From a virus: a stretch of DNA of 41,103 nt. The notes under the pieces are model-generated. The model had not been told where the DNA came from. It saw nothing but the letters and a program-made list of their open reading frames with translations, and made no database searches. This document shows, piece after piece, positions 8,274 to 35,496 of this stretch. How positions within the stretch are numbered: the first letter of the stretch is position 1; each line of letters begins with the position of its first letter. A program made the position numbers and the translations under genes. The DNA is taken from the IMG/VR virus record IMGVR_UViG_3300049440_000232, positions 1 through 41,103 of that record; one strand, given 5' to 3'.

Positions 8274-8611
8274 CCCGGATCCTCGTGGTCGAGGACGATG
8301 CCCTGCTCCGCCGGCTCCTCGCGACCGTGCTCGAGCGCGAAGGCTACCAGGTCACGGACGTCGGGACCGTCGCGCTGGCCGTGGCCCAACCGGGGCCCTG
8401 GGATCTCCTGCTCCTCGATCGGCGTCTCTCGAACGGCGATGGGCGCCGGGTCGCCGAAGAGTTCCAAGGGACGCCGACCCTCTACGTCTCGGCCTATCCG
8501 GATCCGGAGGCAGCCGCGGCCGGCAACTACCTCCAGAAGCCGTTCCTGCCGGAGCACTTCATCAAGAAGGTCCGCTCAATGCTGCCTCCCGCGCGCGAGG
8601 AGCTGCCATGA
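8270..8611 (+). CDS. Stand-alone response-regulator receiver domain
   Basis: The 113-residue product is a full CheY-like receiver with nothing after it. Counted from the CTG at 8270, the acidic pair is D9/D10 (VVEDD), the phospho-acceptor is D50 (LLLLDRRL), the switch Ser is S74 (LYVSAY) and the lysine is K90 (LQKPF). All four positions needed for phosphorylation are present. The only start that gives a normal receiver N-terminus is CTG in a CTGA overlap with the previous gene. An upstream ATG at 8156 would add 38 residues that are antisense-like in composition. There is no output domain, so it would act by protein contact or as a phosphate sink for a host kinase. Confidence 0.8.
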   Translation: MTRILVVEDDALLRRLLATVLEREGYQVTDVGTVALAVAQPGPWDLLLLDRRLSNGDGRRVAEEFQGTPTLYVSAYPDPEAAAAGNYLQKPFLPEHFIKKVRSMLPPAREELP

Positions 8612-8859
8612 AGTGGTCGTGGATCAGCGAGATGCCCACGACCCAGGTGCGGTTCGCGGCCTCGGTGGTCGCGACGCTCTGCGTGGTCGGCAAATACGTC
8701 CTCTCGTCCACCTGGGTCCCGGATCCCGGTGTGCTGCTTTTCCTGGGCGGCTGGCTCGGCATCGACACGACGCACTTCTATCTCAAGCGCCGGACGACGT
8801 TCGCCCCCGACGGGACGAAGACGACCGAGTCGGCCGCGGCGCCGGGGGCGACGCCGTGA
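8608..8859 (+). CDS. Small membrane protein, holin candidate
   Basis: This 83-residue protein has two likely transmembrane segments (about 17-34 and 40-56) and a charged C-terminal tail (YLKRRTT), placed immediately before the muramidase gene. Size, topology and place fit a class II holin, which would form the inner-membrane pore that triggers lysis. The ATG lies in an ATGA overlap with the receiver gene. Other small membrane proteins in the cluster are also holin candidates. Confidence 0.6.
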   Translation: MKWSWISEMPTTQVRFAASVVATLCVVGKYVLSSTWVPDPGVLLFLGGWLGIDTTHFYLKRRTTFAPDGTKTTESAAAPGATP

Positions 8860-9428
8860 CGGCGCGCCAGTTCCCCGATCCCCGCACGGCCGCCTTTCTC
8901 TTCACGGCGGCTCGCGAGGGCGGCGACAAGCCGGCCGGCACGCTCGGCGATCCGAACCACGCCTTCCGGGGCGTCAATCAGCGCACCTACGACGCCCACC
9001 GCCAGAAGCACGGACTGCCCACCCAGGACGTGACGCTGCTGTCGGCCGCCGAGCAGGCCGCGATCTATGACGACTACTGGGCCCGCGGGCGCTGCGCCGA
9101 GATCGCCGCGCACTCGGGGGCGCTGGCCCTCTGCCACTTCGATGCCGTCTTCAACGGCGGCGGCGTGGAGATCCTCGAGCGGGAGATCGGCGAGCTCACC
9201 CCCGACCAGGTCCTGACCGACGACGAGCTCGCGGCCGTCGTGTCGCTCCTCGCGCCCTATAACGTCTTCCCCGATGGCGAGACCGGCGAGGCCGGGGCCT
9301 GCGGGGCCTACTGCGAGGCCCGGCTCGCCCGCTTCCGCCGGCTGCACAACGCGGCCGCGGAGCCCGGCTGGGAAGTCCGCCTCAACCGGGTCGCGAGCTA
9401 TTGCGACCTCACCTGGAGGGTGACATGA
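8856..9428 (+). CDS. Endolysin, GH108-type N-acetylmuramidase
   Basis: GTG start in a GTGA overlap, 190 residues. The N-terminal AAREGGDKPA contains the Glu-Gly-Gly that marks the catalytic glutamate of the glycoside hydrolase 108 family. It is followed by the GD/N-x-x-x-A-F-R-G-V-N segment that in the family reads 'GG.T.YGI'. The middle (AIYDDYW, LALCHFDAVFNGG) matches the usual 'Y...YW' and 'D..VN.G' elements. It would cut the glycan strands of peptidoglycan at lysis. There is no signal peptide, so release would depend on a holin. The length fits the family. Confidence 0.75.
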   Translation: MTARQFPDPRTAAFLFTAAREGGDKPAGTLGDPNHAFRGVNQRTYDAHRQKHGLPTQDVTLLSAAEQAAIYDDYWARGRCAEIAAHSGALALCHFDAVFNGGGVEILEREIGELTPDQVLTDDELAAVVSLLAPYNVFPDGETGEAGACGAYCEARLARFRRLHNAAAEPGWEVRLNRVASYCDLTWRVT

Positions 9429-12460: not shown

Positions 12461-12964
12461 ATGACCATGGCGACGAGAGTGCGGGATACCCGCTGGGCGC
12501 GCGAGCCAGTCGCGCTCCCCTATTCGACGATCGGCGAGAAGCTCCCGACGGCGCTCGCCCAGGCCGCGGTGGGCCAGCTCCCGAAGGTCGCCGCGAAGAT
12601 GGGCCGCGGCGCCGGGACGCTCTTCAAGTGGGCGGAAGGGGAACGGGGGCCCGAGGCGGACTGCGCCGCGCTCTTCCCGGCGCTCCGCGCCGCCGGCATC
12701 CCGCGGGCCCGCGCGACGCTCCTTGTCGCCCGGATCCAGACGCTCTTCCTCGCCGCCTACGGCGACGAGCTCCCCGCGCTGGCCGCGCTCGACCAGGCCG
12801 AGACGCTCGCCGCCTCGGCCGAGAACCAGACCCAGATGGCGCGGATCCACACGCCCAGCCGGGACGCCAAGGTCCGGAACCTCCAAGCGATCGAGAACGA
12901 TGTCGCGATTCTCGAGACCGAGGCCGCGCGCCTCCGGCACGAACTCACCCAGGAGGGCCTATGA
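12461..12964 (+). CDS. HTH protein with C-terminal coiled coil
   Basis: The 167-residue protein has a helix-turn-helix-like segment at about residues 36-66 (LPKVAAKMGRGAGTLFKWAEG), in which the GAGTLFKW stretch resembles a recognition helix. The C-terminus is a clear coiled coil (NLQAIENDVAILETEAARL). The order matches CII-type phage regulators that bind DNA and oligomerise through the tail. It overlaps the next gene by four bases. Which promoters it acts on cannot be read from the sequence. Confidence 0.6.
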   Translation: MTMATRVRDTRWAREPVALPYSTIGEKLPTALAQAAVGQLPKVAAKMGRGAGTLFKWAEGERGPEADCAALFPALRAAGIPRARATLLVARIQTLFLAAYGDELPALAALDQAETLAASAENQTQMARIHTPSRDAKVRNLQAIENDVAILETEAARLRHELTQEGL

Positions 12965-13221
12965 GCCCCCAGCCCCTGTCGGCGGCGGACGTCGCCGGGC
13001 TCGTCGGCCTGGTGTGTTTCTGCGGGCTCCTCGTCGCGGCGCTGCCGTGGCCGCACTACCGGGATCCCGAGGACTTCGCCCATCCGGCGGACCGCCGCGC
13101 GGCGGTCGAGCAGCTACGCCAGCACGAGCGGCTCCGCCAGGGTGCACCCGCAGTAACCGCACGCGAAACGCGCCGTCCGGGATCTGACCCCCGAGCGGCG
13201 CGCCGACTGCACGGTGCGTGA
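12961..13221 (+). CDS. Small single-span membrane protein
   Basis: 86 residues from the ATG in an ATGA overlap. One transmembrane segment (about 9-28, DVAGLVGLVCFCGLLVAALP) is followed by an Arg-rich cytoplasmic tail. The function is unknown. Confidence 0.5.
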   Translation: MSPQPLSAADVAGLVGLVCFCGLLVAALPWPHYRDPEDFAHPADRRAAVEQLRQHERLRQGAPAVTARETRRPGSDPRAARRLHGA

Positions 13222-13269
13222 GCCGCACCGTCGACGGTCAAGATACCACGGCTCGCAAGGAGTGCAACG

Positions 13270-14193
13270 ATGACGGCCCCGAAGATGACGGTCTCGCGCC
13301 GACTGACCCAGGAGGAAGCCCACGATGCCGGGCTGATTCCGCGCGGGCAGGCCTGGGACGAGGAGCAGCAAACGGCGGTGCCGATCGGGATGCTGATCGA
13401 ACGCGAGCAGCTCGAGCGCCCGCTCGACATCACCGCGCAGCTCAGCACGTTCCAGAAGAACCGCACCGCGATCCTCAAGTTCGTGAAGGACTACCTGGTC
13501 GAGGCTGAGTATGACAGCCGGAACGCGCCGATCCCCGGCAAGGTCGGGGACTATTACAAGGTCCCGGGCTCCGAGCAGAAGGCGCTGACGAAGCGCGGGG
13601 CCTCGAAGATCAACCAGCTCTTCCGGTGGTCGCGCGGGGCCGCGCGTCAGGTCGCCGCGACCGAGACGAAGGAGTACTGCTCCGCCACGATCGAGGTCCC
13701 GCTCGTCGATCAGTACGGCCGGATCGTCGGCGCCGGCGTGGCCTCGTGCAATACGGCCGAGTCCGGCTTCCAGGGCGCCGCGGTGAAGAAGTACGGCGGC
13801 TGGGGCGAGTGGAAGGACAAGCGGTTCACGATCAGCCGGCCCCCCGACTATCGCGCCGCGCAGAACGACGTCGTCGCCCGGGCGGCCAAGCGGGCCTCCG
13901 TGCAGGCGACGATCGTCGCCTCAGCGATCGAGGAGATCTTCACCGCGGCGCCCGAGGAGGAGCGGGAGGGCGCGGCGACGGTGCAGACGAGCGCGGCGCG
14001 GCTGCCCGACTCGAAGCGGCTCGGGGATCACAGCGGGCGTCTCGTGACCGAGGTGGCGACCGAGGACCTCCGCGAGCTGGCCGTCCGCATGAAGGCCAAG
14101 ATGACGGATCCCGACACCTGGCAGCCGGTCCTCGAGACGATCGAGCTCGAGCTCGATCGCCGGCGCAGCCCGGATCCCGAGGCCGGCTTCTGA
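13270..14193 (+). CDS. Putative recombination / strand-annealing protein
   Basis: The 307-residue product starts at an ATG after an AAGGAG site. The central region (LTKRGASKINQLFRW, then EVPLVDQYGRIVGAGVASC) and the helix near residue 200 (NDVVARAAKRASVQATIV followed by EEIFT) resemble a conserved phage family. That family's signature is 'G..KL..LF', a beta-sheet with 'G..V..G.G.C.T.E', and 'N....KMAKKRA.VDA.L..T..S..FTQD'. It is usually found next to recombination nucleases. The gene for an Mre11/SbcD-like nuclease follows with a one-base overlap, so the two probably work as an annealase-nuclease pair. The family recall is not verified. Confidence 0.55.
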   Translation: MTAPKMTVSRRLTQEEAHDAGLIPRGQAWDEEQQTAVPIGMLIEREQLERPLDITAQLSTFQKNRTAILKFVKDYLVEAEYDSRNAPIPGKVGDYYKVPGSEQKALTKRGASKINQLFRWSRGAARQVAATETKEYCSATIEVPLVDQYGRIVGAGVASCNTAESGFQGAAVKKYGGWGEWKDKRFTISRPPDYRAAQNDVVARAAKRASVQATIVASAIEEIFTAAPEEEREGAATVQTSAARLPDSKRLGDHSGRLVTEVATEDLRELAVRMKAKMTDPDTWQPVLETIELELDRRRSPDPEAGF

Positions 14194-15350
14194 TGCGGAT
14201 CGCCCACTTGGCCGACGTGCACCTGGGGTGCCGGATCTACGAGCGGCTCACCGCCCAGGGCGCGAACATCCGGGAGCAGGACATCGCCCAGGCCTTCGGG
14301 CGCGCGATCGACGGCGTGATCGCGGCCCGGGTGGACCTGGTCCTCCTCGCGGGGGACTTCTTCCACGCCGTGCGGCCCACGAATAGCGCGATTCTCGTGG
14401 CCTACCGCGAGCTCGCGCGGCTGCGGCAGTCCCTGCCCAATACGCCGGTCATCGTCATCTCCGGCGATCACGACACGCCCCGCTCCTCGACGACGACGCC
14501 GATCCTGTCGCTCTATCAGGCGCTCGGCGTCGACGTCGTCCAGACGGGCGTCGTCCGGCTCGAGCGGGCCGGGGCGGTGGTGACCTGCGTGCCACAGGGC
14601 GCGCTCGCGCAGCTGGCGGACGTCGCCCCCGTCCCCGGCAAGCTGAACATCCTCCTGGCCCATGGGGAGGCGCGGGATCTGCCGCACCAGGCGCGGACGA
14701 TCGCCGCCGATGTCCTGGCGGCCGCCTGGGACTACGTCGCGCTCGGCCACTACCATGTCCACCAGCAGGTCGCGCCGCGGGCCTGGTACGCGGGCTCGCT
14801 CGACTACGTCTCGACCGATCCCTGGAAGGATCTGCGCGAGGAGGCCCGCGCCGGCCTCGGCGGGAAGGGCTGGCTGTGCTGCGAGCTCCCGGCCGGCGTC
14901 CCGACGCTCGAGCGGATCGCGCCCCCACGGGTGTTCCGGGATCTCCCGTCGCTCTCCGGGGAGCGGCTGAATCCGGCCGAGCTCTCGGCGGCGATCCTTG
15001 AGCGCGTCGCCGAGGTGCCAGACGGGGCCGTGGCCCGGCTCGTCGTCCATGACGTGCCGCGCGCGGTGGCGAAGGAGCTCGCCTGGGACCGGATCCGGGC
15101 GGAGAAGGGACGCCTGACCATCCTCCATCTCGATCTCCGGCGCCCGGAGGTCGAAGCCGGCGTCGAGCGGCGCCGGCAGCTCTTCCAGAACCTGGACGAG
15201 GTCGTGTTCGGCTTCCTCGGCGACCGGGCCGCGCAGCTGCAGACCCAGGGCTGGTCCGCCGACGAGGCCGCGGAGTTCCAGCGCCTCGGGAACGACTACT
15301 TCGCGGCCACGGCCCACCGCCCGTCGGTGGGGACGGGCGTTGCCGCATGA
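14193..15350 (+). CDS. Mre11/SbcD-like DNA nuclease without an SbcC partner
   Basis: The 385-residue protein carries the calcineurin-type phosphoesterase motifs in order: D8-x-H10 (LADVHLG), G54-D55-x-x-H58 (AGDFFHA), G91-D-H93-D (SGDHDTP; the family usually has GNHD), H157-G (LLAHGEA) and G185-H-x-H188 (LGHYHVH). The remaining 190 residues correspond to the capping region. Host SbcD works with the large coiled-coil ATPase SbcC. No such gene is present in this genome. It likely processes DNA ends for phage recombination together with the preceding protein, or borrows the host SbcC. Confidence 0.85.
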   Translation: MRIAHLADVHLGCRIYERLTAQGANIREQDIAQAFGRAIDGVIAARVDLVLLAGDFFHAVRPTNSAILVAYRELARLRQSLPNTPVIVISGDHDTPRSSTTTPILSLYQALGVDVVQTGVVRLERAGAVVTCVPQGALAQLADVAPVPGKLNILLAHGEARDLPHQARTIAADVLAAAWDYVALGHYHVHQQVAPRAWYAGSLDYVSTDPWKDLREEARAGLGGKGWLCCELPAGVPTLERIAPPRVFRDLPSLSGERLNPAELSAAILERVAEVPDGAVARLVVHDVPRAVAKELAWDRIRAEKGRLTILHLDLRRPEVEAGVERRRQLFQNLDEVVFGFLGDRAAQLQTQGWSADEAAEFQRLGNDYFAATAHRPSVGTGVAA

Positions 15351-15369
15351 CGCTGACCCAGGAGCTCCG

Positions 15370-15585
15370 ATGCCCGTGGCCGCCGAGAACGTCGACGACG
15401 TCTTCACCTATCACGCCCCGGACGGCCAGCAGCAGGTCGCCCTCGAGGAGATCCGGAACGGCGCCAAGGCGCTCGCCCGGACGATCCTCGATCACACCCC
15501 GAAGTGCGGCGACCAGCAGGCGGCGCTGCGCCTGCTCCGGGAAGCGGTGATGACCGCGAACGCCGCGGTCTTCGGCCTCGTCTAA
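15370..15585 (+). CDS. acb2: Acb2-like anti-CBASS protein (cyclic nucleotide sponge)
   Basis: The ATG at 15370 follows AGGAG with a five-base spacer. The product has 71 residues. Its layout matches the Acb2 / T4 Vs.4 family that phages use to bind and hide the cyclic di- and trinucleotides made by CBASS defence. A short F-T-Y14-H leader is followed by a helix with I28-R29-x-x-A-K33-x-L-A, a turn, and a final helix with LREAVMTAN64AA. The family is known to form a helical homohexamer that holds ligand between subunits. Y14, R29, K33 and N64 are my candidates for ligand contacts. It is surrounded by early recombination and regulatory genes, which suits a protein needed early. A binding test would settle it. 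Confidence 0.78.
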   Translation: MPVAAENVDDVFTYHAPDGQQQVALEEIRNGAKALARTILDHTPKCGDQQAALRLLREAVMTANAAVFGLV

Positions 15586-15692
15586 GTCGGACACGGGCGC
15601 GGCGGCGCGGGGTTGTCGGCGGGGCGCCTAGGGAGTCGTCCCCCGACGTCAAGGAATGTGGCCTTTCCCCGGCCGACCTCGACGCCCGGTAC
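15586..15692. other. Non-coding spacer before the tRNA-like gene
   Basis: Very G+C-rich gap with no gene that I can support. A reading frame crosses it but has no ribosome-binding site and odd composition. Confidence 0.4.
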
Positions 15693-15764
15693 GCGGAAGT
15701 CCTGCAGTCGGTGGAACGGCGCCCTACCAGGGCGACGTCCCGGGTTCGAGCCCCGGCTTCCGCT
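15693..15764 (+). tRNA. tRNA-Gly-like gene, anticodon ACC
   Basis: The 72-base segment has a perfect 7-bp acceptor stem (GCGGAAG / CTTCCGC, the pairing typical of tRNA-Gly). The T arm is perfect, CCGGG-TTCGAGC-CCCGG (15740-15756). The anticodon arm has four of five pairs and loop CTACCAG, giving anticodon ACC (Gly, GGU codon). The D arm (AGTCGGTGG loop) is recognisable but pairs poorly. CCA is not encoded. It could be a functional phage tRNA with an odd D arm or a decaying one. ACC is a very unusual bacterial glycine anticodon. Confidence 0.5.
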
Positions 15765-15813
15765 TCCCCTGTTGCACCAGCGTCGGACTCGAGCCATGGA
15801 GAGCGCGACCCGC

Positions 15814-16089
15814 ATGACGATCACCCTCGACGAGAACGAATGCCGCTCCATCTGCCGGGCCATCAAACTCCGGGCGGACGAACTGTCGAAAGAGGCGAAG
15901 AAGCTCCTGAAGCTCGACCGTCCCACCGAGGCCCGGAATCTCACGACCGAAGCCGAGGATCTGACCGGGCGCCTGGGGCCGAAGTTCGACGCCCAGGGCA
16001 CGTTCGACTTCAAGGCCGCAGCCCAGAAGGATGCGATCGCGGCGGCCAAGGCCCGGAACAAAGACAAGCCGACCGGGGGTGCCAAATGA
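15814..16089 (+). CDS. Small charged helical protein
   Basis: The start at 15814 has GGAGAG ten bases upstream; ATG 15796 is an alternative that adds six residues. Upstream extension would run through the tRNA-like gene. The product (about 91 residues) is a helical, highly charged protein (RADELSKEAKKLLKLDR) with a C-terminal Lys/Ala-rich tail. No family is recognised. Confidence 0.6.
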   Translation: MTITLDENECRSICRAIKLRADELSKEAKKLLKLDRPTEARNLTTEAEDLTGRLGPKFDAQGTFDFKAAAQKDAIAAAKARNKDKPTGGAK

Positions 16090-16544
16090 CTGGCGCCGAG
16101 CTGCGCGAGATCATCCTCCCCGGTCGAGAAACCGCCCGTGCCCGGGAAGAAGAAGGGCGGCCGCAAGTGAGCGACCTCTCCATGCTCGAGCAGCTCGAGG
16201 CACTGCGCAACCAGCACTTGAACGCGGCCCTCGAGCACCAGGCTGCGGCCAAGCAGACCGAGAAGGCGATCGACGCGGTCCAGGCCCTCCAGGACATCGC
16301 GCCGGCGCAGATCCGGGCGCACATGGCCCACACGCGTCGGGCGCCGAAGGCGCCCCCGAAAAAGCGGGGGGTGGGGCCGCGGAACGCCACGAACGGCGAC
16401 GGCGTCACCGAGCAGTGGGCGAAGGGCCGCAGGCTCTGGGACGACGGCAAGGACGTCAAGGAGATCGCGGCCGCCCTGGGCGTCAGCACGTTCTCGGTCT
16501 ACAACCATCGGAAGTCCGACGGTTGGCCCGCGCGGTCCGAGTAA
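16086..16544 (+). CDS. HTH protein with N-terminal coiled coil
   Basis: 152 residues from the ATG in an ATGA overlap. A GTG at 16168 is another possible start. Residues about 30-80 form a coiled coil (LEALRNQHLNAALEHQAA). The C-terminus has a clear helix-turn-helix (DVKEIAAALGVSTFSVYNHR) of the type found in transposase and small-terminase DNA-binding heads. It sits just upstream of the replication-type gene. Confidence 0.6.
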   Translation: MTGAELREIILPGRETARAREEEGRPQVSDLSMLEQLEALRNQHLNAALEHQAAAKQTEKAIDAVQALQDIAPAQIRAHMAHTRRAPKAPPKKRGVGPRNATNGDGVTEQWAKGRRLWDDGKDVKEIAAALGVSTFSVYNHRKSDGWPARSE

Positions 16545-17724: not shown

Positions 17725-17948
17725 CGGCGATCGAGTTCTGGGCGGCCGTCGGGGGCTGGGTGCAGCAGCTACGGGAGGCGCGCGGGCTCTCCCGCACCCA
17801 GCTCGGCGTCGACGCCTTACAGCTCACCCCCCACCACGCCCGGAAGAAGATCCGGGAGATCGAGATTGCCCGAGTGCGGATCGATTGTTGGGAGCGCCAG
17901 CAGCTGGCGGCCGTGCTCCAGGTGCCCCCCGCGGAGATCTGCCCGTGA
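17721..17948 (+). CDS. XRE-type HTH regulator, short
   Basis: The 75-residue protein is an XRE-type helix-turn-helix (VQQLREARGLSRTQLGVDAL, then ARKKIREIE) with little else, similar in size to Cro-like regulators. It overlaps the next gene by four bases (GTGA). It could tune expression of the ATPase gene or serve as a second regulator of the lytic programme. Confidence 0.65.
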   Translation: MTAIEFWAAVGGWVQQLREARGLSRTQLGVDALQLTPHHARKKIREIEIARVRIDCWERQQLAAVLQVPPAEICP

Positions 17949-19588
17949 GCCGGACGATCCCCTTTGGGTTCGCGATTCCCTCGGGCGACCCGGTGAAGGT
18001 CCCGCTCCGGCACATGGTGATTACCGGACAAACGCAGGAGGCCGGCAAGACCACGGCGCTCGAAGCGATGGTGGCGCGGGCCGGGCTCCAGGCCGTCGTG
18101 TTCGTGACGAAGCGCGGCGAGGGCTCATTCGCCGGCGCTCGCACCATCCCGCCGTACTTCCGCGAGCAGACGGACTGGCGGTATGTCGCGGCCGTCCTCG
18201 AGGCCGCCGAGGGCCAGAAGCTCAAGTTCGAGCGCGCCTGGATCATGCGCGCCGTGAAGGGCGCGAAGACCCTCGCCGAGGTCCAGCGGAACGTCCAGAC
18301 CCTCGGCCGCGAGGCCAAGCGCGGGATGGATGCCGACGTCTATCTCGTGCTCGACGCCTACCTCCAGGATGTCGTGCCGCAGATCGCGAAGGTGCGCTGG
18401 GCGCAGACGGTCGCGCTCGGGGACGGCATCAACGCGATGGACCTGGGCGGCCTGTCCGAGGCGATGCAGCACCTGGTGATCCGCTCGACGCTCGAGTGGG
18501 TGCTTCACTCGGCCGAGCGGACCGTCGTCGTCGTCCCGGAGGCCTGGAAGTTCATCCCCCAGGGCCGGGGGACGCCGGTGAAGCTCGCGGCCGAGGCCTA
18601 TATCCGGCAGGCCGCGGCGCTCAAGAACTACCTCTGGCTCGACTCCCAGGACATCGCCGGCGTCGAGAAGATCATCCTCAAGAGCTGTCCCGTCTGGATC
18701 CTCGGTGTGCAGCGCGAGGCGAACGAGATCCAGCGCACCCTCGATCAGATCCCGGGCGCGAAGAAGCGGATCCACGCCGAGGACGTCGCCCGGTTGGGCC
18801 TCGGCCAGTTCTACGTCTGCCACGGCGATCAGATCACGAAGGCCTACGCGCAACCCCGCTGGCTCGAGGATCGGGACGCGCAGGCGATCGCCCGGGGCCA
18901 GCTCGACGTCCACAGCGCCCGGCTCACCGATCTCGCCTTTCAGCTCCAACCCCCCGTCGCCGTTACTCTCGCCGAGGAATCGACCGTGACCGAACAAGAA
19001 GCCGCGGAACTCCGCGAGGAGAACACGCGATTACAGGATGAGGCCCGCGACCTGCGGGCCCGCATCGAGGTCCTCGAGCTGCGGGGACGGCTCGAGCCCC
19101 GGCCGAACGACGGCGGAACCGTGACGCCGAAGATCCGCCTGCCGGCCGAGCGAGAGACGGTGGTCCACGACCTCCGCGCCGTCGCGCCCCTGGACCCGGC
19201 CCTCGGGGGCGAAGAGCTCTACGAGCAGATCAAGGCGCGGCTCTCGGCCGAGGCGCCCCAGATCCTGAAGGTGCTCGCGACGCGCCCCGAGCTCGACGTC
19301 ACCGTCCAGCGCGTGACCGTGGAGCTCGATGGCGCGACGCCCCAGGGCCGGATCGCCCGGCTGATCGCGGATGGGTTCTTCGCCGAGCCCCGCGCCCCCG
19401 GCCAGGTCCAAGCGGAGCTCGCCCGACGGGGGAAGGACCCGGGCCCGCGGATCGTCGATGGGATCCGCTCGCTCAGCGAGATGGGCTTCTTCTTGGTGGG
19501 CAGCGGCCGGGACTCGAAGTCGCGCGTCACCACGACCTATCAGGCGGCGCCGGGGATCAAGGTGCGGACGCGGGAGATCGCCGCGTGA
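17945..19588 (+). CDS. HerA/FtsK-like ATPase with C-terminal winged-helix-like region
   Basis: GTG start in a GTGA overlap, 547 residues. The P-loop is G28-QTQEAGKT-T37. A hydrophobic strand ending in an acidic residue (TVVVVPEAWKF) is the probable Walker B, and YLWLDSQDIAGV is the usual strand ending in Gln of the HerA/VirB4/FtsK group. After about residue 340 come a coiled coil (EQEAAELREENTRLQDEARD) and a C-terminal part that looks like a winged helix (GRIARLIADGFFAEPRAPGQ). Members pump or unwind DNA as hexamers. In bacteria and archaea HerA works with an Mre11-type nuclease, and this phage has one at 14193. The substrate is unknown. Confidence 0.75.
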   Translation: MSRTIPFGFAIPSGDPVKVPLRHMVITGQTQEAGKTTALEAMVARAGLQAVVFVTKRGEGSFAGARTIPPYFREQTDWRYVAAVLEAAEGQKLKFERAWIMRAVKGAKTLAEVQRNVQTLGREAKRGMDADVYLVLDAYLQDVVPQIAKVRWAQTVALGDGINAMDLGGLSEAMQHLVIRSTLEWVLHSAERTVVVVPEAWKFIPQGRGTPVKLAAEAYIRQAAALKNYLWLDSQDIAGVEKIILKSCPVWILGVQREANEIQRTLDQIPGAKKRIHAEDVARLGLGQFYVCHGDQITKAYAQPRWLEDRDAQAIARGQLDVHSARLTDLAFQLQPPVAVTLAEESTVTEQEAAELREENTRLQDEARDLRARIEVLELRGRLEPRPNDGGTVTPKIRLPAERETVVHDLRAVAPLDPALGGEELYEQIKARLSAEAPQILKVLATRPELDVTVQRVTVELDGATPQGRIARLIADGFFAEPRAPGQVQAELARRGKDPGPRIVDGIRSLSEMGFFLVGSGRDSKSRVTTTYQAAPGIKVRTREIAA

Positions 19589-20939: not shown

Positions 20940-21960
20940 CCACGACCGCGGGACCTTCATGGTCGATCGCCGGTTCGGCCCCGTGGGCCGGATCCTCCGT
21001 GCCTCGGGCACCTCGGATCCGGCGACGTTCAAGGCGATCAACGTCGCGCTCTCGGAACTGAACAACCTCGGGCGCCTCGAGCTGCTGCGTGCGGTCCGCG
21101 ATGGCGTCCTGACTCCGCTCGAGGTCTACGGGGCCTTCCGCCTGGGGCAGCTCGATCGACTCCCGACGGCGGAAGACGTGAAGCCGCTCGCCGGCGCCGT
21201 CACGACCTGGCTCCCCACGCTCGATGTCCGCCCGGGCACGCGCAAGGACTACCGGCAGTACTTCGACCGCCTCCTCGCCGGTCACGCCGCGGCCCGCGTC
21301 GCGGACCTCCCGCGGATCCTCAAGACCTATCGCGATCGGTGCCAGCGTGAAGGCACGCGGACGACCTTCAACCACACGCGCGCGGCGGTCCAGGCGTTCT
21401 TCCGCGACGTCCTGAGCCCCCGGCATCCGCTCTACGGCGACGCGACGGCGATCGCCAAGCTCCGCGAGGATCCCCGGAAGGGGAATCCGCGGTCGGTGGC
21501 GCAGATCCGCGCCCTCGCCGGCGCGCTGGGAGCGCACGGCCCGACGCTCTGGGCGCTCTGCCTCACGGGGATGCGCCGGGCCGAGTACTTCGGCGGCGCG
21601 TGGGACGTCGCGGGCGATCGGGTGCGGATCCACGGGACGAAGACCGCCGGCGCCGAGCGGTTCGTGCCGCTCGTCTTCCCGATCGCCGCGCCGACCGTCG
21701 GCTACTGGGGGTTCAACCAGGCGCTGCGGAAGGCGACCGGCGGTCATGTGCGCGTCCATGATCTGCGAAAGACGGCCGCGCACTGGTGGGAGTCGGCCAG
21801 CGTGCCGCGCACCCGGCGCCGACTCTATCTCGGCCACGGCCGGCGCGACATCTCGGACCTGTACGAAGAGCATGACGTCCGGGCGTTCCTGCAGGAGGAT
21901 GCCGAGCGGCTGCGGACCTTCGTGGGCGCGGCACCGCAACTGCTCCGGGCGGTGCAATGA
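20923..21960 (+). CDS. int: Tyrosine integrase
   Basis: The 345-residue product is a tyrosine recombinase. The catalytic arginine lies in LTGMRRAEYFGG, the H-x-x-R in VHDLRKTAAHWW, and the late His and nucleophile Tyr in YLGHGRRDISDLYEEHD. An N-terminal SAM-like core-binding domain (about 75-160) is also visible. The start at 20923 has GAGGA nine bases upstream; ATG 20959 would remove 12 residues. The gene ends 70 bases before a tRNA-Lys 3' half, so it integrates the phage into the host tRNA-Lys(CTT) gene. A few residues of the box II lysine region are hard to place by eye. Confidence 0.88.
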   Translation: MTPHRSHDRGTFMVDRRFGPVGRILRASGTSDPATFKAINVALSELNNLGRLELLRAVRDGVLTPLEVYGAFRLGQLDRLPTAEDVKPLAGAVTTWLPTLDVRPGTRKDYRQYFDRLLAGHAAARVADLPRILKTYRDRCQREGTRTTFNHTRAAVQAFFRDVLSPRHPLYGDATAIAKLREDPRKGNPRSVAQIRALAGALGAHGPTLWALCLTGMRRAEYFGGAWDVAGDRVRIHGTKTAGAERFVPLVFPIAAPTVGYWGFNQALRKATGGHVRVHDLRKTAAHWWESASVPRTRRRLYLGHGRRDISDLYEEHDVRAFLQEDAERLRTFVGAAPQLLRAVQ

Positions 21961-22712: not shown

Positions 22713-23140
22713 GCGGTCCGAAGTCAGGCGGAAAGTCAGGGCGTTCTGATTCACGGAAGCAGAACGCCGGACACTTCGCGAAGGGGGGCGATGCCCGTCA
22801 GGGCCGCGGGCCCGCGAAGGGCGCGCCCAACGCCGGCCGACCGCCCGACAAGTTCAAGCTCGCGATGCAGGGCATCGCCGACCGCCCCGAGGTCCTCAAG
22901 CGCCTCACGCACCTGACCGGTCCCCGCCGCACAGGCAGTGCGGCCGTGCCCGACGACGTCTTCCTGAAGGCCTTCAAGGAGGTCGCAGATCGTGGCTACG
23001 GCAAGCCGGCCCAGCCCATCGAGCACACGGGCGCCGATGGTGGCGCCATCCAGTTCGAGGACGCGGCCAGCGCCCGCGCAGCGATCGCTCGCGAGCTTGC
23101 TGGCGTCCAAACCCGAGGGCGCGCGCCAGCGGATTCTTAG
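22709..23140 (+). CDS. Putative small terminase subunit
   Basis: 143 residues. The N-terminus is a Gly/Lys-rich segment (AGHFAKGGDARQGRG, GAPNAGRPPDKFK) as seen in small proteins encoded directly before terminases. The middle is helical (VPDDVFLKAFKEVADRGYGK) and ends in an acidic tail. The gene overlaps the large terminase. The role is inferred from order, since the N-terminal helix-turn-helix of typical small subunits is not obvious. Confidence 0.5.
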   Translation: MSGPKSGGKSGRSDSRKQNAGHFAKGGDARQGRGPAKGAPNAGRPPDKFKLAMQGIADRPEVLKRLTHLTGPRRTGSAAVPDDVFLKAFKEVADRGYGKPAQPIEHTGADGGAIQFEDAASARAAIARELAGVQTRGRAPADS

Positions 23141-24440
23141 CACCCTCTCGGACGACCAGGTCCAGGCCCTCCGCTACGACTGGCGCTTCTGGGGGCGGCC
23201 CTCGCAGTTCGCGCCCGACGATCCCGACTGGCTGATCTGGCTCCTGATGACGGGGCGCGGGTTCGGGAAGACGCGGTCCGGCGCCGAGTTCATCAACGAG
23301 CGCGCCTTCCAGGGCGGCAAGCAGCGGTGGATCGCCCTGATCGGCGCCACGCCGGCCGACGTCCGCGACTACCAGATCGAGCGTGGCCCCTCGGCGATCC
23401 TCCGGGTGTCGCCCCCCTGGTTCCGGCCGGCCTACTTCCCCTCGAAGCGCCTCCTGCTCTGGCCGAACGGCGCGCACGCCACCGTCTTCTCGGGGGAAAA
23501 GCCCGAGGGCCTCCGCGGCTTTTCGGGCGACACCGCCTGGGGCGACGAGTTCGCGAAGTGGCGCCACCCCGAGGAGGCCCTCGACAACCTGCTCTTCGGG
23601 ATGCGCGAGGCGAAGGTCTCGAGCCCGCAGATCTGTCTCACCACGACCCCGAAGCCGCTCGCGATCCTGAAGGAGCTCGTCAAAGACCCGGACGTCCGGA
23701 CGATCGGCGGCACGTCCTACGAGAACCGCGAGAACCTGGACCCCCGGTGGTTCGCGAAGGTGATCGCGAAGGTCGAGGGGACGTCGCTCGGCCTCCAGGA
23801 GGTCCAGGGCAAGCTGCTGGACGAGATGCCGGGCGCGAAATGGAAGCGCGCGTGGATCGACGACCATCGGCACCAGGGACGGCATCCGGATCTGCTCCGG
23901 ATCGTCGTCGCGGTCGATCCCCCCGGCAGCTCGCGCAAGGGCGGCGCCGAGTGCGGGATCCTGGTCGGCGGCATCGCCCGCCTCGCCGGTGTACTGCACG
24001 GCTTCGTCCTCGAGGACGGGACGCTCCGCGCGACGCCGGCGTATTGGGGCCGCGCGGCGGTCCGCGCGTTCTGGAAGTGGCGCGCCGATCGCCTGGTGGC
24101 CGAGAAGAACTACGGCGGCGAGATGGTCGAGCACACGATCCGGACCGTCCCGAAGGACGACGAGGCCCGCGCGGGACTGGACGTCGCCTACAAGCACGTC
24201 AGCGCCACGCGGGGGAAGGTCGTGCGCGCGGAGCCGATCGCGGCACTCTATGAGAAGGGCCGGATCCACCACTGCGGCGCCTTCCCCGCGCTCGAGGACG
24301 AGCTCTGCACCTGGGAGGATCTGCCGGGCGAGCCGTCGCCGAACCGCCTCGACGCTCTGGTCTGGTGCTTCACGGAGCTCCTGCTCGAGCCCGAACCCAA
24401 CCTCGACATCCGTCTGCCGGTGCTGCGCCGCCCCACCTAG
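23037..24440 (+). CDS. terL: Terminase large subunit
   Basis: 467 residues from ATG 23037; longer (22992) and shorter (TTG 23097) starts are possible, all overlapping the previous gene. The packaging ATPase P-loop is G73-RGFGK-T79 (MTGRGFGKTRSGAEF). The acidic strand TAWGDEFAKW is the probable Walker B, followed by the coupling segment ICLTTTPKP. The nuclease half has the Asp strand (VVAVDPPGS) and late acidic residues (NRLDALVW). It translocates DNA into the prohead and cuts it. The next downstream gene is the portal. Confidence 0.92.
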   Translation: MVAPSSSRTRPAPAQRSLASLLASKPEGARQRILSTLSDDQVQALRYDWRFWGRPSQFAPDDPDWLIWLLMTGRGFGKTRSGAEFINERAFQGGKQRWIALIGATPADVRDYQIERGPSAILRVSPPWFRPAYFPSKRLLLWPNGAHATVFSGEKPEGLRGFSGDTAWGDEFAKWRHPEEALDNLLFGMREAKVSSPQICLTTTPKPLAILKELVKDPDVRTIGGTSYENRENLDPRWFAKVIAKVEGTSLGLQEVQGKLLDEMPGAKWKRAWIDDHRHQGRHPDLLRIVVAVDPPGSSRKGGAECGILVGGIARLAGVLHGFVLEDGTLRATPAYWGRAAVRAFWKWRADRLVAEKNYGGEMVEHTIRTVPKDDEARAGLDVAYKHVSATRGKVVRAEPIAALYEKGRIHHCGAFPALEDELCTWEDLPGEPSPNRLDALVWCFTELLLEPEPNLDIRLPVLRRPT

Positions 24441-24512: not shown

Positions 24513-25970
24513 ATGGCGAAGGCCAGCTCGATCAAGAAGGCCGCGGGACCGCCTCCTCCCGCCCCGAAAGCCGCTCCGTCCGGACCGCCGGCGCCGCGGC
24601 CGCAAGCGTCAGCTCCCGCTCCCGCCGTCCCCCCGAAGCCCGACGCGCCGGCCCGGCCCTACGACTGGAAGACGGACGCGCCGCCGATCGGCGGCGTCCC
24701 CCGCGCCAACCAGCAGCCGACCGCCGGCGATGCCGTCCAGACGCTCGGCCAGCCGCTCCTTCGGAACCGCTCGGCGTCGCTCTTCATCGACGACCCGCTG
24801 CTCTGGGAGTTTCGCGGGCCCCGGGCGATCCAGACGATCGACCGGATCCTCCTCGATCCCGTCGTCGCCGGCACGCTCGAGCGGACGTCCCTCATGTTGC
24901 GCGGCGCCGACTGGCACATGGTGCCGGGCGATGATCGCGACATCTCGAAGCAGTGGGCCGAGCGCATCCAGGCCGACATCAACAACCTCGAGACCGGCTG
25001 GGAGTCGACCGTCGCCCAGGGCGCCGACATGCTGGGCTGGGGCTTCGCGCTCTTCGAGGTGCTCTTCCGCCAAGAGGCCGACGGGATCCACTGGCAGGAC
25101 TTCAGCCCCCGGGATCAACGGACGGTCCGCAGCTGGGACGTCGAGCCCGAAACGGGCAAACTCCTGGGCGTCCTCCAGCGGATCGAGACGGCCGGCGAGC
25201 GGATGCGCACGATCCCCGGCTGGAAACTGCTCCACTTTCGGACGCACCCCGCGAGTGGACGCCCCGAAGGGCGGTCGCTGATCCGGAACGCCTTCATCCC
25301 GTGGACCGACAAGCAGGAGCTGCGGCGGATCATCAAGCTCGGGCTCCGCCGGGACTTCACGGGGATCCCGGTGATGCAGGTCCCGATCCAGAACCTGACG
25401 CCCGGCGCCACGCCCGAAGAGAAGGCCGCGCTCGCCGAGGCCGAATCGATGGTGCGCGACGTCGAGCGCGATCTCCGCGAAGGCCTGGTCGTGCCGTCCG
25501 AGACGGATCCGCGCACGAACCAGCCATCGGGCTGGAAGCTCGGCCTGATGCAGTCGCCCGGCCGCCGGCAGATCGATCTCGAGTCCGTCTTCACCGTCAC
25601 GAACCGCGAGATCCTGATCGGGCTGATGGCCGAGTTCATCCTCCTCGGGCATGACCAGTCCGGCAGCCGGAGCCTCGGCGGCTCGAAGATGACGTTCTTC
25701 AACAAGGCCGCGACGGCCTGGCTCGACAACATCGCCGAGGTGATGGAGCGGAAGGCGACGCCGGTGCTCCAGGCCCTCAACCCGCAGTTCCGGACGGCCG
25801 CCCGGCCGAAGTGGGAGCACGGCGACGTCGACGCCGTCGAGCTCCAACAGCTCGGCGAGTTCCTGCAGGCCGCGGTGGGCACCGGCGCGATCGTGCCGGA
25901 TCCCGCGCTCGACAAGTGGGCCCGCGACCAGGTCGGCGCGCCCGTGGCCGATCAGAACCTCGACCTGTGA
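24513..25970 (+). CDS. Portal protein
   Basis: 485 residues. After a Pro/Ala/Lys-rich N-terminus (about 60 residues) comes a portal-like body: WEFRGPRAIQTIDRILLDPV, GADWHMVPGDD, WQDFSPRDQRTVRSWDV and GWKLLHFRTHPASGRPEG. Portal proteins form the dodecamer through which DNA enters the head and to which the tail attaches. The gene follows the large terminase, as usual. The pattern of Gly/Asp strands resembles the Mu-type portal group. Confidence 0.8.
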   Translation: MAKASSIKKAAGPPPPAPKAAPSGPPAPRPQASAPAPAVPPKPDAPARPYDWKTDAPPIGGVPRANQQPTAGDAVQTLGQPLLRNRSASLFIDDPLLWEFRGPRAIQTIDRILLDPVVAGTLERTSLMLRGADWHMVPGDDRDISKQWAERIQADINNLETGWESTVAQGADMLGWGFALFEVLFRQEADGIHWQDFSPRDQRTVRSWDVEPETGKLLGVLQRIETAGERMRTIPGWKLLHFRTHPASGRPEGRSLIRNAFIPWTDKQELRRIIKLGLRRDFTGIPVMQVPIQNLTPGATPEEKAALAEAESMVRDVERDLREGLVVPSETDPRTNQPSGWKLGLMQSPGRRQIDLESVFTVTNREILIGLMAEFILLGHDQSGSRSLGGSKMTFFNKAATAWLDNIAEVMERKATPVLQALNPQFRTAARPKWEHGDVDAVELQQLGEFLQAAVGTGAIVPDPALDKWARDQVGAPVADQNLDL

Positions 25971-34320: not shown

Positions 34321-35496
34321 ATGTTTCGCACGGACGACCTGCTGCACGATTCGGCGCTCAAGCGGCTCAACAAGAGCGGCCGGGAGCTCGTCCTGGCGTT
34401 CGTCGATGCCCTCGAGAAGCAGGGGTCGAAGCCGACCGGCGGCGCGCTCGACGGCTGGGAGCGCCTCACGAAAGCGGATCCCGATCCCACCACGACCCAC
34501 GTCTCGACCGAGCTGACCGACGTCAGTCTGATGTATCTGCAGGACGCGAGCATGTTCGCCGCGTCCGGCCAGGGCTTCATCCCCGCGAACGTGCCGGCCG
34601 GCTTCATCAACCGGTATAACAAGGGCGACATCTTCCGCGTCAAGCCCGAGATGGCGGTCCGCGGGCCCGCGGCCGAGTCGGCGGGCGGCGGCTTCAAGAT
34701 CGACAACCTGCCGTTCGCGTGCATCCCCTACGCCATCCACAAGGACGTGGATGAGCAGCTCCAGGCGACCCAGATCGTGGGCGACCCGGTGGACGACGCG
34801 AACAGCTACGTCACCCAGCAGCTGCTCCTGATCCGCGAGGCCGTCTGGGTGGCGAAGCTCTTCGCCGCCGGGCTCTGGAGCATCGATCTGACGGGCGTCC
34901 CGGGCGCGCCGGCTGGCGGCCAGTTCAAGCAGTGGGACCAGGCCTCCTCGACCCCGCGGGAAGATCTGTCGCTCAACGCGATCAACATCTTCCAGAAGAC
35001 CGGGAAGTGGCCGAACCGGCTGACGGTGACGCCCTTCGTGCTCCGCGGGCTCCTGCTCAACGCCGAGATCGTCGCGGCCTTCCAGTACACGACCGCCGGC
35101 GCCACGCCCGACCTGGTGGCCCTGGCGAAGTGCCTCTTCATGCCCGCGATGGCGGCGGCGCAGGCGGCCGGCGTCGCGGCGGCGGAACCCCGCCTCGCGA
35201 TCTGCGGCGGGATCCAGACCACGTCCGACGAAGGCCAGGCGGATGTCCTGAGCTTCATCGGCGGCAAGGGCGCGCTCCTGGCGTACGTCGCCGATCGCCC
35301 GGGTCTCCGCGAGGTCTCGGCCTACTACACGGTGGGCTGGACGGGGCTCCTCGGCTCGAATGCCCTGGGGTTCCGGATCAAGGACTTCCCGCTCGAGCGG
35401 AACGGCGTCACGCACCGGATCGAGGGCGAGACGGCCTTCGACATCCCGCTCACCGGGACGGACCTCGCGGCCTTCTTCGCGACGGCCGTCAGCTAG
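34321..35496 (+). CDS. Major capsid protein
   Basis: 391 residues. The place after the decoration gene, the size and sequence such as VKPEMAVRGPAAESAGGG, KDVDEQLQATQIVGDPVDD and ADRPGLREVSAYYTVGWTGL fit a HK97-fold major capsid protein. A strong terminator follows. It is probably the most abundant protein of the particle. No N-terminal cleavage site can be assigned. Confidence 0.8.
   Translation: MFRTDDLLHDSALKRLNKSGRELVLAFVDALEKQGSKPTGGALDGWERLTKADPDPTTTHVSTELTDVSLMYLQDASMFAASGQGFIPANVPAGFINRYNKGDIFRVKPEMAVRGPAAESAGGGFKIDNLPFACIPYAIHKDVDEQLQATQIVGDPVDDANSYVTQQLLLIREAVWVAKLFAAGLWSIDLTGVPGAPAGGQFKQWDQASSTPREDLSLNAINIFQKTGKWPNRLTVTPFVLRGLLLNAEIVAAFQYTTAGATPDLVALAKCLFMPAMAAAQAAGVAAAEPRLAICGGIQTTSDEGQADVLSFIGGKGALLAYVADRPGLREVSAYYTVGWTGLLGSNALGFRIKDFPLERNGVTHRIEGETAFDIPLTGTDLAAFFATAVS

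Follow-up and report, generated by a model that had tools for sequence, protein, structure and literature searches.

A small hairpin protein of the Acb2/Tad1 family encoded by a GC-rich tailed phage and the branch to which it belongs

The members of the Acb2/Tad1 family that have been tested soak up small-molecule alarm signals which bacteria use against viruses. Two solved Acb2 proteins and Tad1 are near counterparts of the protein described here. In Vs.4, the 88-residue Acb2 of phage T4 (7uq2), cGAMP is held by stacking with Tyr8 and Phe82 and by polar contacts of Tyr8, His11, Lys23 and Arg79, and the hexamer needs Leu29, Ala66, Ala73 and Ala77 (PMC10097602). A short helix followed by two long helices is the published Acb2 architecture (PMC12043709). 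The Acb2 of a Pseudomonas phage (p26; 8h2j, 8h2x, 8ixz) has been published as a hexamer of such hairpins. Tad1 (7uav, 8kbg) belongs to the same hairpin family but has chains of ∼123–138 residues with an N-terminal beta domain. The literature already contains annotated Acb2-like genes of soil and actinobacterial phages; those of Microbacterium phage Statler (gp57) and the Mycobacterium phages Xandras/BigBubba, phages with known hosts, carry the annotation Acb2 or cyclic-oligonucleotide sequestration (PMC13348362, PMC11953737).

Here we describe an acb2-like gene in the IMG/VR virus record IMGVR_UViG_3300049440_000232. The window, that is, the whole stretch of DNA which was analysed, is this complete record of 41,103 bases, which is classed as linear and has a GC content of 71%. 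As terminase, portal, head, tail, integrase and muramidase genes are present (Table 1), the record is a tailed, probably temperate phage. When its first 25 kb were compared with 50,697 phage records no near DNA relative was found. The nearest matches of the major capsid protein come from Pseudomonas and Roseobacter phages, at 35%, and this does not point to a host.

Table 1. Features of the window (positions in the 41,103-nucleotide record).
Feature	Position	Strand	Remark
Tail protein	1218-2540
Largest phage gene	2537-7555	+	1672-aa product
Receiver-domain gene	8285-8611	+	108 aa; PF00072, E 9e-10
GH108 muramidase	8856-9428
SbcD-like nuclease gene	14193-15350	+	directly 5′ of the acb2-like gene
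Ribosome-binding site AGGAG	15360..15364	+	5 nt 5′ of ATG; read directly
acb2-like gene, 71 aa (P0001), Acb2/Tad1 hairpin family	15370..15585	+	PF24729
Short N-terminal helix (predicted)	15391..15402	+	codons 8-11; AlphaFold, DSSP
F-T-Y-H; Tyr14 = Vs.4 Tyr8 (cGAMP stacking)	15403..15414	+	codons 12-15; Vs.4 alignment/profile
First long hairpin helix (predicted)	15424..15495	+	codons 19-42; AlphaFold, DSSP
Arg29 = Vs.4 Lys23 / Pseudomonas Acb2 Lys26	15454..15456	+	15 residues past Tyr14
Second long helix (predicted)	15508..15576	+	codons 47-69; Ala52/Ala59/Ala63, Asn64, Phe68
tRNA-Gly, anticodon acc	15693-15764	+	∼110 nt 3′ of the acb2-like gene
P-loop ATPase-like protein	17945-19588	+	547 aa; GQTQEAGKTT
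Phage-type integrase	20959-21960		PHROG match
Terminase large subunit	23097-24440
Portal protein	24513-25970
Major head protein	34321-35496

The gene and its surroundings

The gene is a frame of 71 codons from ATG to TAA, and its product P0001 reads MPVAAENVDDVFTYHAPDGQQQVALEEIRNGAKALARTILDHTPKCGDQQAALRLLREAVMTANAAVFGLV. It starts 20 nt past the stop codon of the SbcD-like gene; among the phage proteins scanned no SbcC-like gene was recognised. The original prediction, which was made from the sequence alone, had pointed out a good ribosome-binding site and three motifs, and indeed AGGAG stands 5 nt before the ATG and FTYH (residues 12–15), IRNGAK (28–33) and AVMTAN (59–64) are all present. It had also placed the gene among early genes. 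This setting is plausible by position alone, but no sigma-70-like promoter was found in the region 12900–16200.

Long open reading frames run antisense across the gene, a common situation in DNA with 71% GC, and one could suppose that the gene is spurious and that the minus-strand frames 14028–15407 and 14455–15594 are the real genes. We give this supposition practically no credence. The plus frame is favoured by its match to PF24729, by homologues in at least 145 stretches, by its codon score and by a dN/dS of ∼0.16–0.40 against the relatives with unsaturated dS, and by the same evidence the supposition is refuted. The acb2-like gene is under purifying selection.

Some other genes of the phage deserve mention. 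The receiver-domain gene codes for a stand-alone response-regulator receiver domain, an unusual cargo for a phage, and lies in the tail and lysis region near the muramidase gene. The P-loop ATPase-like protein matches the PADLOC model mads_8 (E 1.5e-7) and weakly also a terminase-type model, and is possibly a HerA/FtsK-like ATPase. For the product of the largest gene neither Pfam nor PHROGs gave a match at the thresholds applied. A tRNA gene follows the acb2-like gene, and tRNA genes are likewise found near the acb2-like genes of the Mycobacterium phages Phabba (locus L002) and Myrna (L004).

Family membership and predicted fold

P0001 matches the Pfam profile of the Acb2/Tad1 hairpin domain (PF24729) over positions 1–57 of 58 with 38.7 bits and an E-value of 1.2e-9, above the curated gathering cut-off of 27 bits; T4 Vs.4 itself scores 70.3 bits. 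The same profile, and no other Pfam family, is matched by all 37 aligned relatives from viral contigs (38 of 38 with P0001) at E ≤ 0.001. The profile search which had been proposed as a check thus bears out the assignment, and together with the predicted fold and a register common with T4 Vs.4 it upholds the claim that the protein is of the Acb2/Vs.4 family. That P0001 belongs to the Acb2/Tad1 hairpin family is in our view next to certain. Other searches were less informative: P0001 matches phrog_31113 and phrog_1454, both without function, a search of NCBIfam returned nothing, PADLOC reported nothing for P0001, and direct phmmer comparison with the PDB yielded only chance matches, mostly designed helical bundles.

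When its profile is aligned with that of the Vs.4 family, residues 8–68 are paired with Vs.4 2–82 over 61 columns (E 0.0023), with an hhalign probability of only 12% for the window branch against the Vs.4 profile, and the link between the two runs through Pfam and through intermediate members. In pairwise comparison the scores of P0001 with Vs.4 and with Pseudomonas Acb2 do not reach significance (fractions of shuffles 0.06 and 0.09), and the register with Vs.4 therefore relies on the family alignment and the profile comparison. The pairwise score with 'Acb2 homolog 43' (9ptq) is significant (0.0005). This protein is also the closest solved relative by sequence when the profile of the window branch is used (E 0.0012). 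It shares a start of the form F-x-x-H, a short hairpin and a lysine at the place of Arg29, but has threonine at the place of Tyr14 and is of low identity.

The monomer model which AlphaFold2 produced from 38 sequences (m595a5349bd24) has a mean pLDDT of 92.4 and helices at residues 8–11, 19–42 and 47–69 according to DSSP. It shows the Acb2 architecture, with a short N-terminal helix, two long antiparallel helices and no beta domain. The model has an Acb2-like hairpin fold, and in a Foldseek search of the PDB T4 Vs.4 comes first, with a probability of 0.96. The corresponding E-value of 0.32 is weak and taken alone would not be significant, as may be expected for a hairpin of 71 residues, because two-helix hairpins yield many chance matches. 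Among viral fold matches the best has an E-value of 1.4e-4 and a TM-score of 0.81. The nine best are all named Acb2/Tad1 hairpin proteins, as are most of the next ten; among the 18 best, the names of 16 were checked and are mostly Acb2/Tad1.

The putative nucleotide pocket

The multiple alignment and the profile–profile comparison with Vs.4 give one register. In this register Tyr8, His11, Thr12, Lys23 and Leu29 of Vs.4 correspond to Tyr14, Pro17, Asp18, Arg29 and Leu35 of the window protein, Ala66, Ala73 and Ala77 to Ala52, Ala59 and Ala63, and Ser74, Arg79 and Phe82 to Val60, Ala65 and Phe68. Conservation was counted over 76 distinct sequences of the F-x-Y-H branch, which come from virus contigs of soil type, from actinophages, from phages of Bacillota and from an Acidobacteria phage. 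Phe12 and Arg29 are found in 76/76, Tyr14 in 74/76 and His15 in 73/76 of these sequences, Asn64 is invariant, and the three alanines which correspond to the hexamer interface of Vs.4 are conserved. Vs.4 and the window protein share, besides the Pfam family and the order of the helices, a tyrosine and a basic residue 15 positions apart, alanine contacts spaced +7/+4 and a C-terminal ...A-V-F, although the hairpin of Vs.4 is longer.

The distance between Tyr14 and Arg29 is the same as in both solved Acb2 proteins, Vs.4 (Tyr8 and Lys23) and Pseudomonas Acb2. In the latter, Tyr11 and the ligand-binding lysine at 26 are spaced 15 apart as read from the alignment. The exchange of lysine for arginine at position 29 is a conservative one. 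The original prediction had instead measured 19 residues between Tyr14 and Lys33 and had asked for a comparison with known members, since a change might point to another ligand range. This argument goes back to an error in the register. The residue homologous to Lys23/Lys26 is Arg29, which stands 15 residues past Tyr14 as is canonical; Lys33 is not homologous to them and is variable, being lysine in only 45/76 sequences.

Other positions have indeed changed. The place of Vs.4 His11 is taken by proline in 73/76 sequences, that of Arg79, where Pseudomonas Acb2 also has arginine, by alanine in 76/76 and that of Ser74 by valine in 73/76; at the position of Phe82 alanine is found in 66/76, with the window protein itself having phenylalanine. 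Two of the four polar cGAMP contacts of Vs.4 are therefore replaced throughout the branch. We do not file the protein as a T4-type Acb2, because the contacts made by His11, Arg79 and, in most of the branch, Phe82 are not kept, and we place it in the wider Acb2/Tad1 hairpin family only. For the same reason cGAMP, a trinucleotide and a cyclic ADP-ribose are all candidate ligands.

These exchanges could mean that the protein is a sponge aimed at a signal other than 3′3′-cGAMP, either a cyclic trinucleotide or a cyclic ADP-ribose of TIR origin, and that Phe12, His15, Arg29 and Asn64 are the core of a rebuilt dinucleotide pocket. In favour of this, the equivalents of His11 and Arg79 are lost branch-wide and invariant Phe12 and Asn64 and a near-invariant His15 are gained. 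In addition, hhalign unites the window branch with its sister group A4 of Paenibacillus and Gordonia phages (E 1e-20), and in the second helix of A4 a stretch of 20 residues, the last of them a conserved asparagine, matches solved Tad1 (E 0.023); the best solved relative of A4 is homolog 43 (E 1e-5). The helix-2 motif of Tad1, A-L-x-x-x-E-A-x-M-x-x-N, compares with AALRLLREAVMTAN in the window protein, with an E-value of only 1.2 for the profile of the window branch against Tad1. By sequence the branch looks partly Tad1-like in its second helix and is Acb2-sized. On the other hand, the branch retains Tyr14 together with its basic partner at +15, the contact residues can be judged only from a complex structure, and the gcADPR pocket of Tad1 also uses loops and the beta domain (PMC12043709), which are absent from a protein of 71 residues with no strands in its model. 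We therefore hold a different signal to be possible but not the leading expectation; it would be a narrower form of the general sponge mechanism described below and is compatible with it. The more specific proposal, that the F-x-Y-H branch has rebuilt the dinucleotide pocket, captures an immune signal unlike that of T4-type Acb2 and, with the size of an Acb2, is intermediate between this protein and Tad1, is rather unlikely and is put forward tentatively.

Distribution, hosts and function

In IMG/VR at least 145 stretches encode relatives, the best with 73% identity. A further 63 phage records contain relatives, among them Mycobacterium phages Phabba and Myrna, Tunturiibacter phage Tunturi_1 and phages of Gordonia, Paenibacillus and Brevibacillus, and they are also encoded by 17 contigs of bacteria, which include Planctomycetota and Acidobacteriota. 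Relatives of Vs.4 are found in over a thousand phage records. In Phabba (L002, 1501–1929), Myrna (L004, 1468–1965) and one further locus (L035, from 3001) the Acb2-like domain is N-terminal in a longer protein of about 140–190 residues. Several GenBank records of Paenibacillus and Brevibacillus phages (L006, 1492–1698, and others) label the gene 'phosphomannomutase', which is evidently a misannotation.

When the open reading frames flanking the relatives were clustered (3–8 kb of flanks), the acb2-like gene was the sole gene common to 98/98 loci and had no common neighbour; the remaining clusters were open reading frames antisense to the gene or were confined to small sets of contigs related to each other. 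Other genes of the window were recognised at only one of more than 100 loci (L105, capsid-region genes, 29–44%). Because there is no common neighbour and almost no other window gene at the loci of the relatives, the gene appears to be mobile cargo which is passed on by itself among unrelated phages.

The original prediction had implied that the host group uses CBASS. This is not shown by the 16 bacterial assemblies which carry relatives: a CD-NTase match, searched for as the SMODS type only, was found in one of them (an Acidobacteria assembly with three matches), and a SAVED domain in none, in a search without positive control. A ThsB-type TIR match was obtained in 3/16 assemblies vs 1/16 for CD-NTase, which fits a signal other than cGAMP, but the counts are small. 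As the assemblies are mostly metagenome-derived and incomplete, they are weak evidence on the use of CBASS either way.

It might also be asked whether the hairpin has been reused outside immune signalling, for example, as a small coiled coil with a structural or regulatory role. The pocket residues are partly changed, some relatives in Gordonia phages lie beside portal genes, and for the majority of the Acb2/Tad1 hairpin family the function is putative. However, a simple hairpin would not need the near-invariant Tyr14, Arg29 and Asn64 and the hexamer alanines, and the erratic distribution as a single gene is typical of counter-defence cargo. We thus regard reuse as improbable.

It is considerably more likely, and in our opinion probable, that P0001 acts by the general mechanism of an Acb2-family sponge, that is, as a hexamer sequestering a nucleotide immune signal. 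By analogy with the family, the two long antiparallel helices and the short N-terminal helix are expected to form the hexamer, and pockets between the protomers, lined by Tyr14 and Arg29, would take up a nucleotide second messenger which an anti-phage system of the host produces, be it a cyclic di- or trinucleotide of CBASS or another cyclic nucleotide. The effector would then stay off and the cell would not abort the infection. The gene itself is accessory and travels singly among phages that are not related.

The results extend a known family of phage counter-defence proteins to another phage, whose protein belongs to a widespread branch, and they correct the register behind an earlier argument for changed specificity. 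Phe12, His15, Arg29 and Asn64 make up a short list of residues that may decide which bacterial alarm signal the branch captures. Since the host Panoptes system can sense sponges of the Acb2/Tad1 family (PMC12657218, PMC12657230), the identity of the ligand would matter to the phage and to the host alike.
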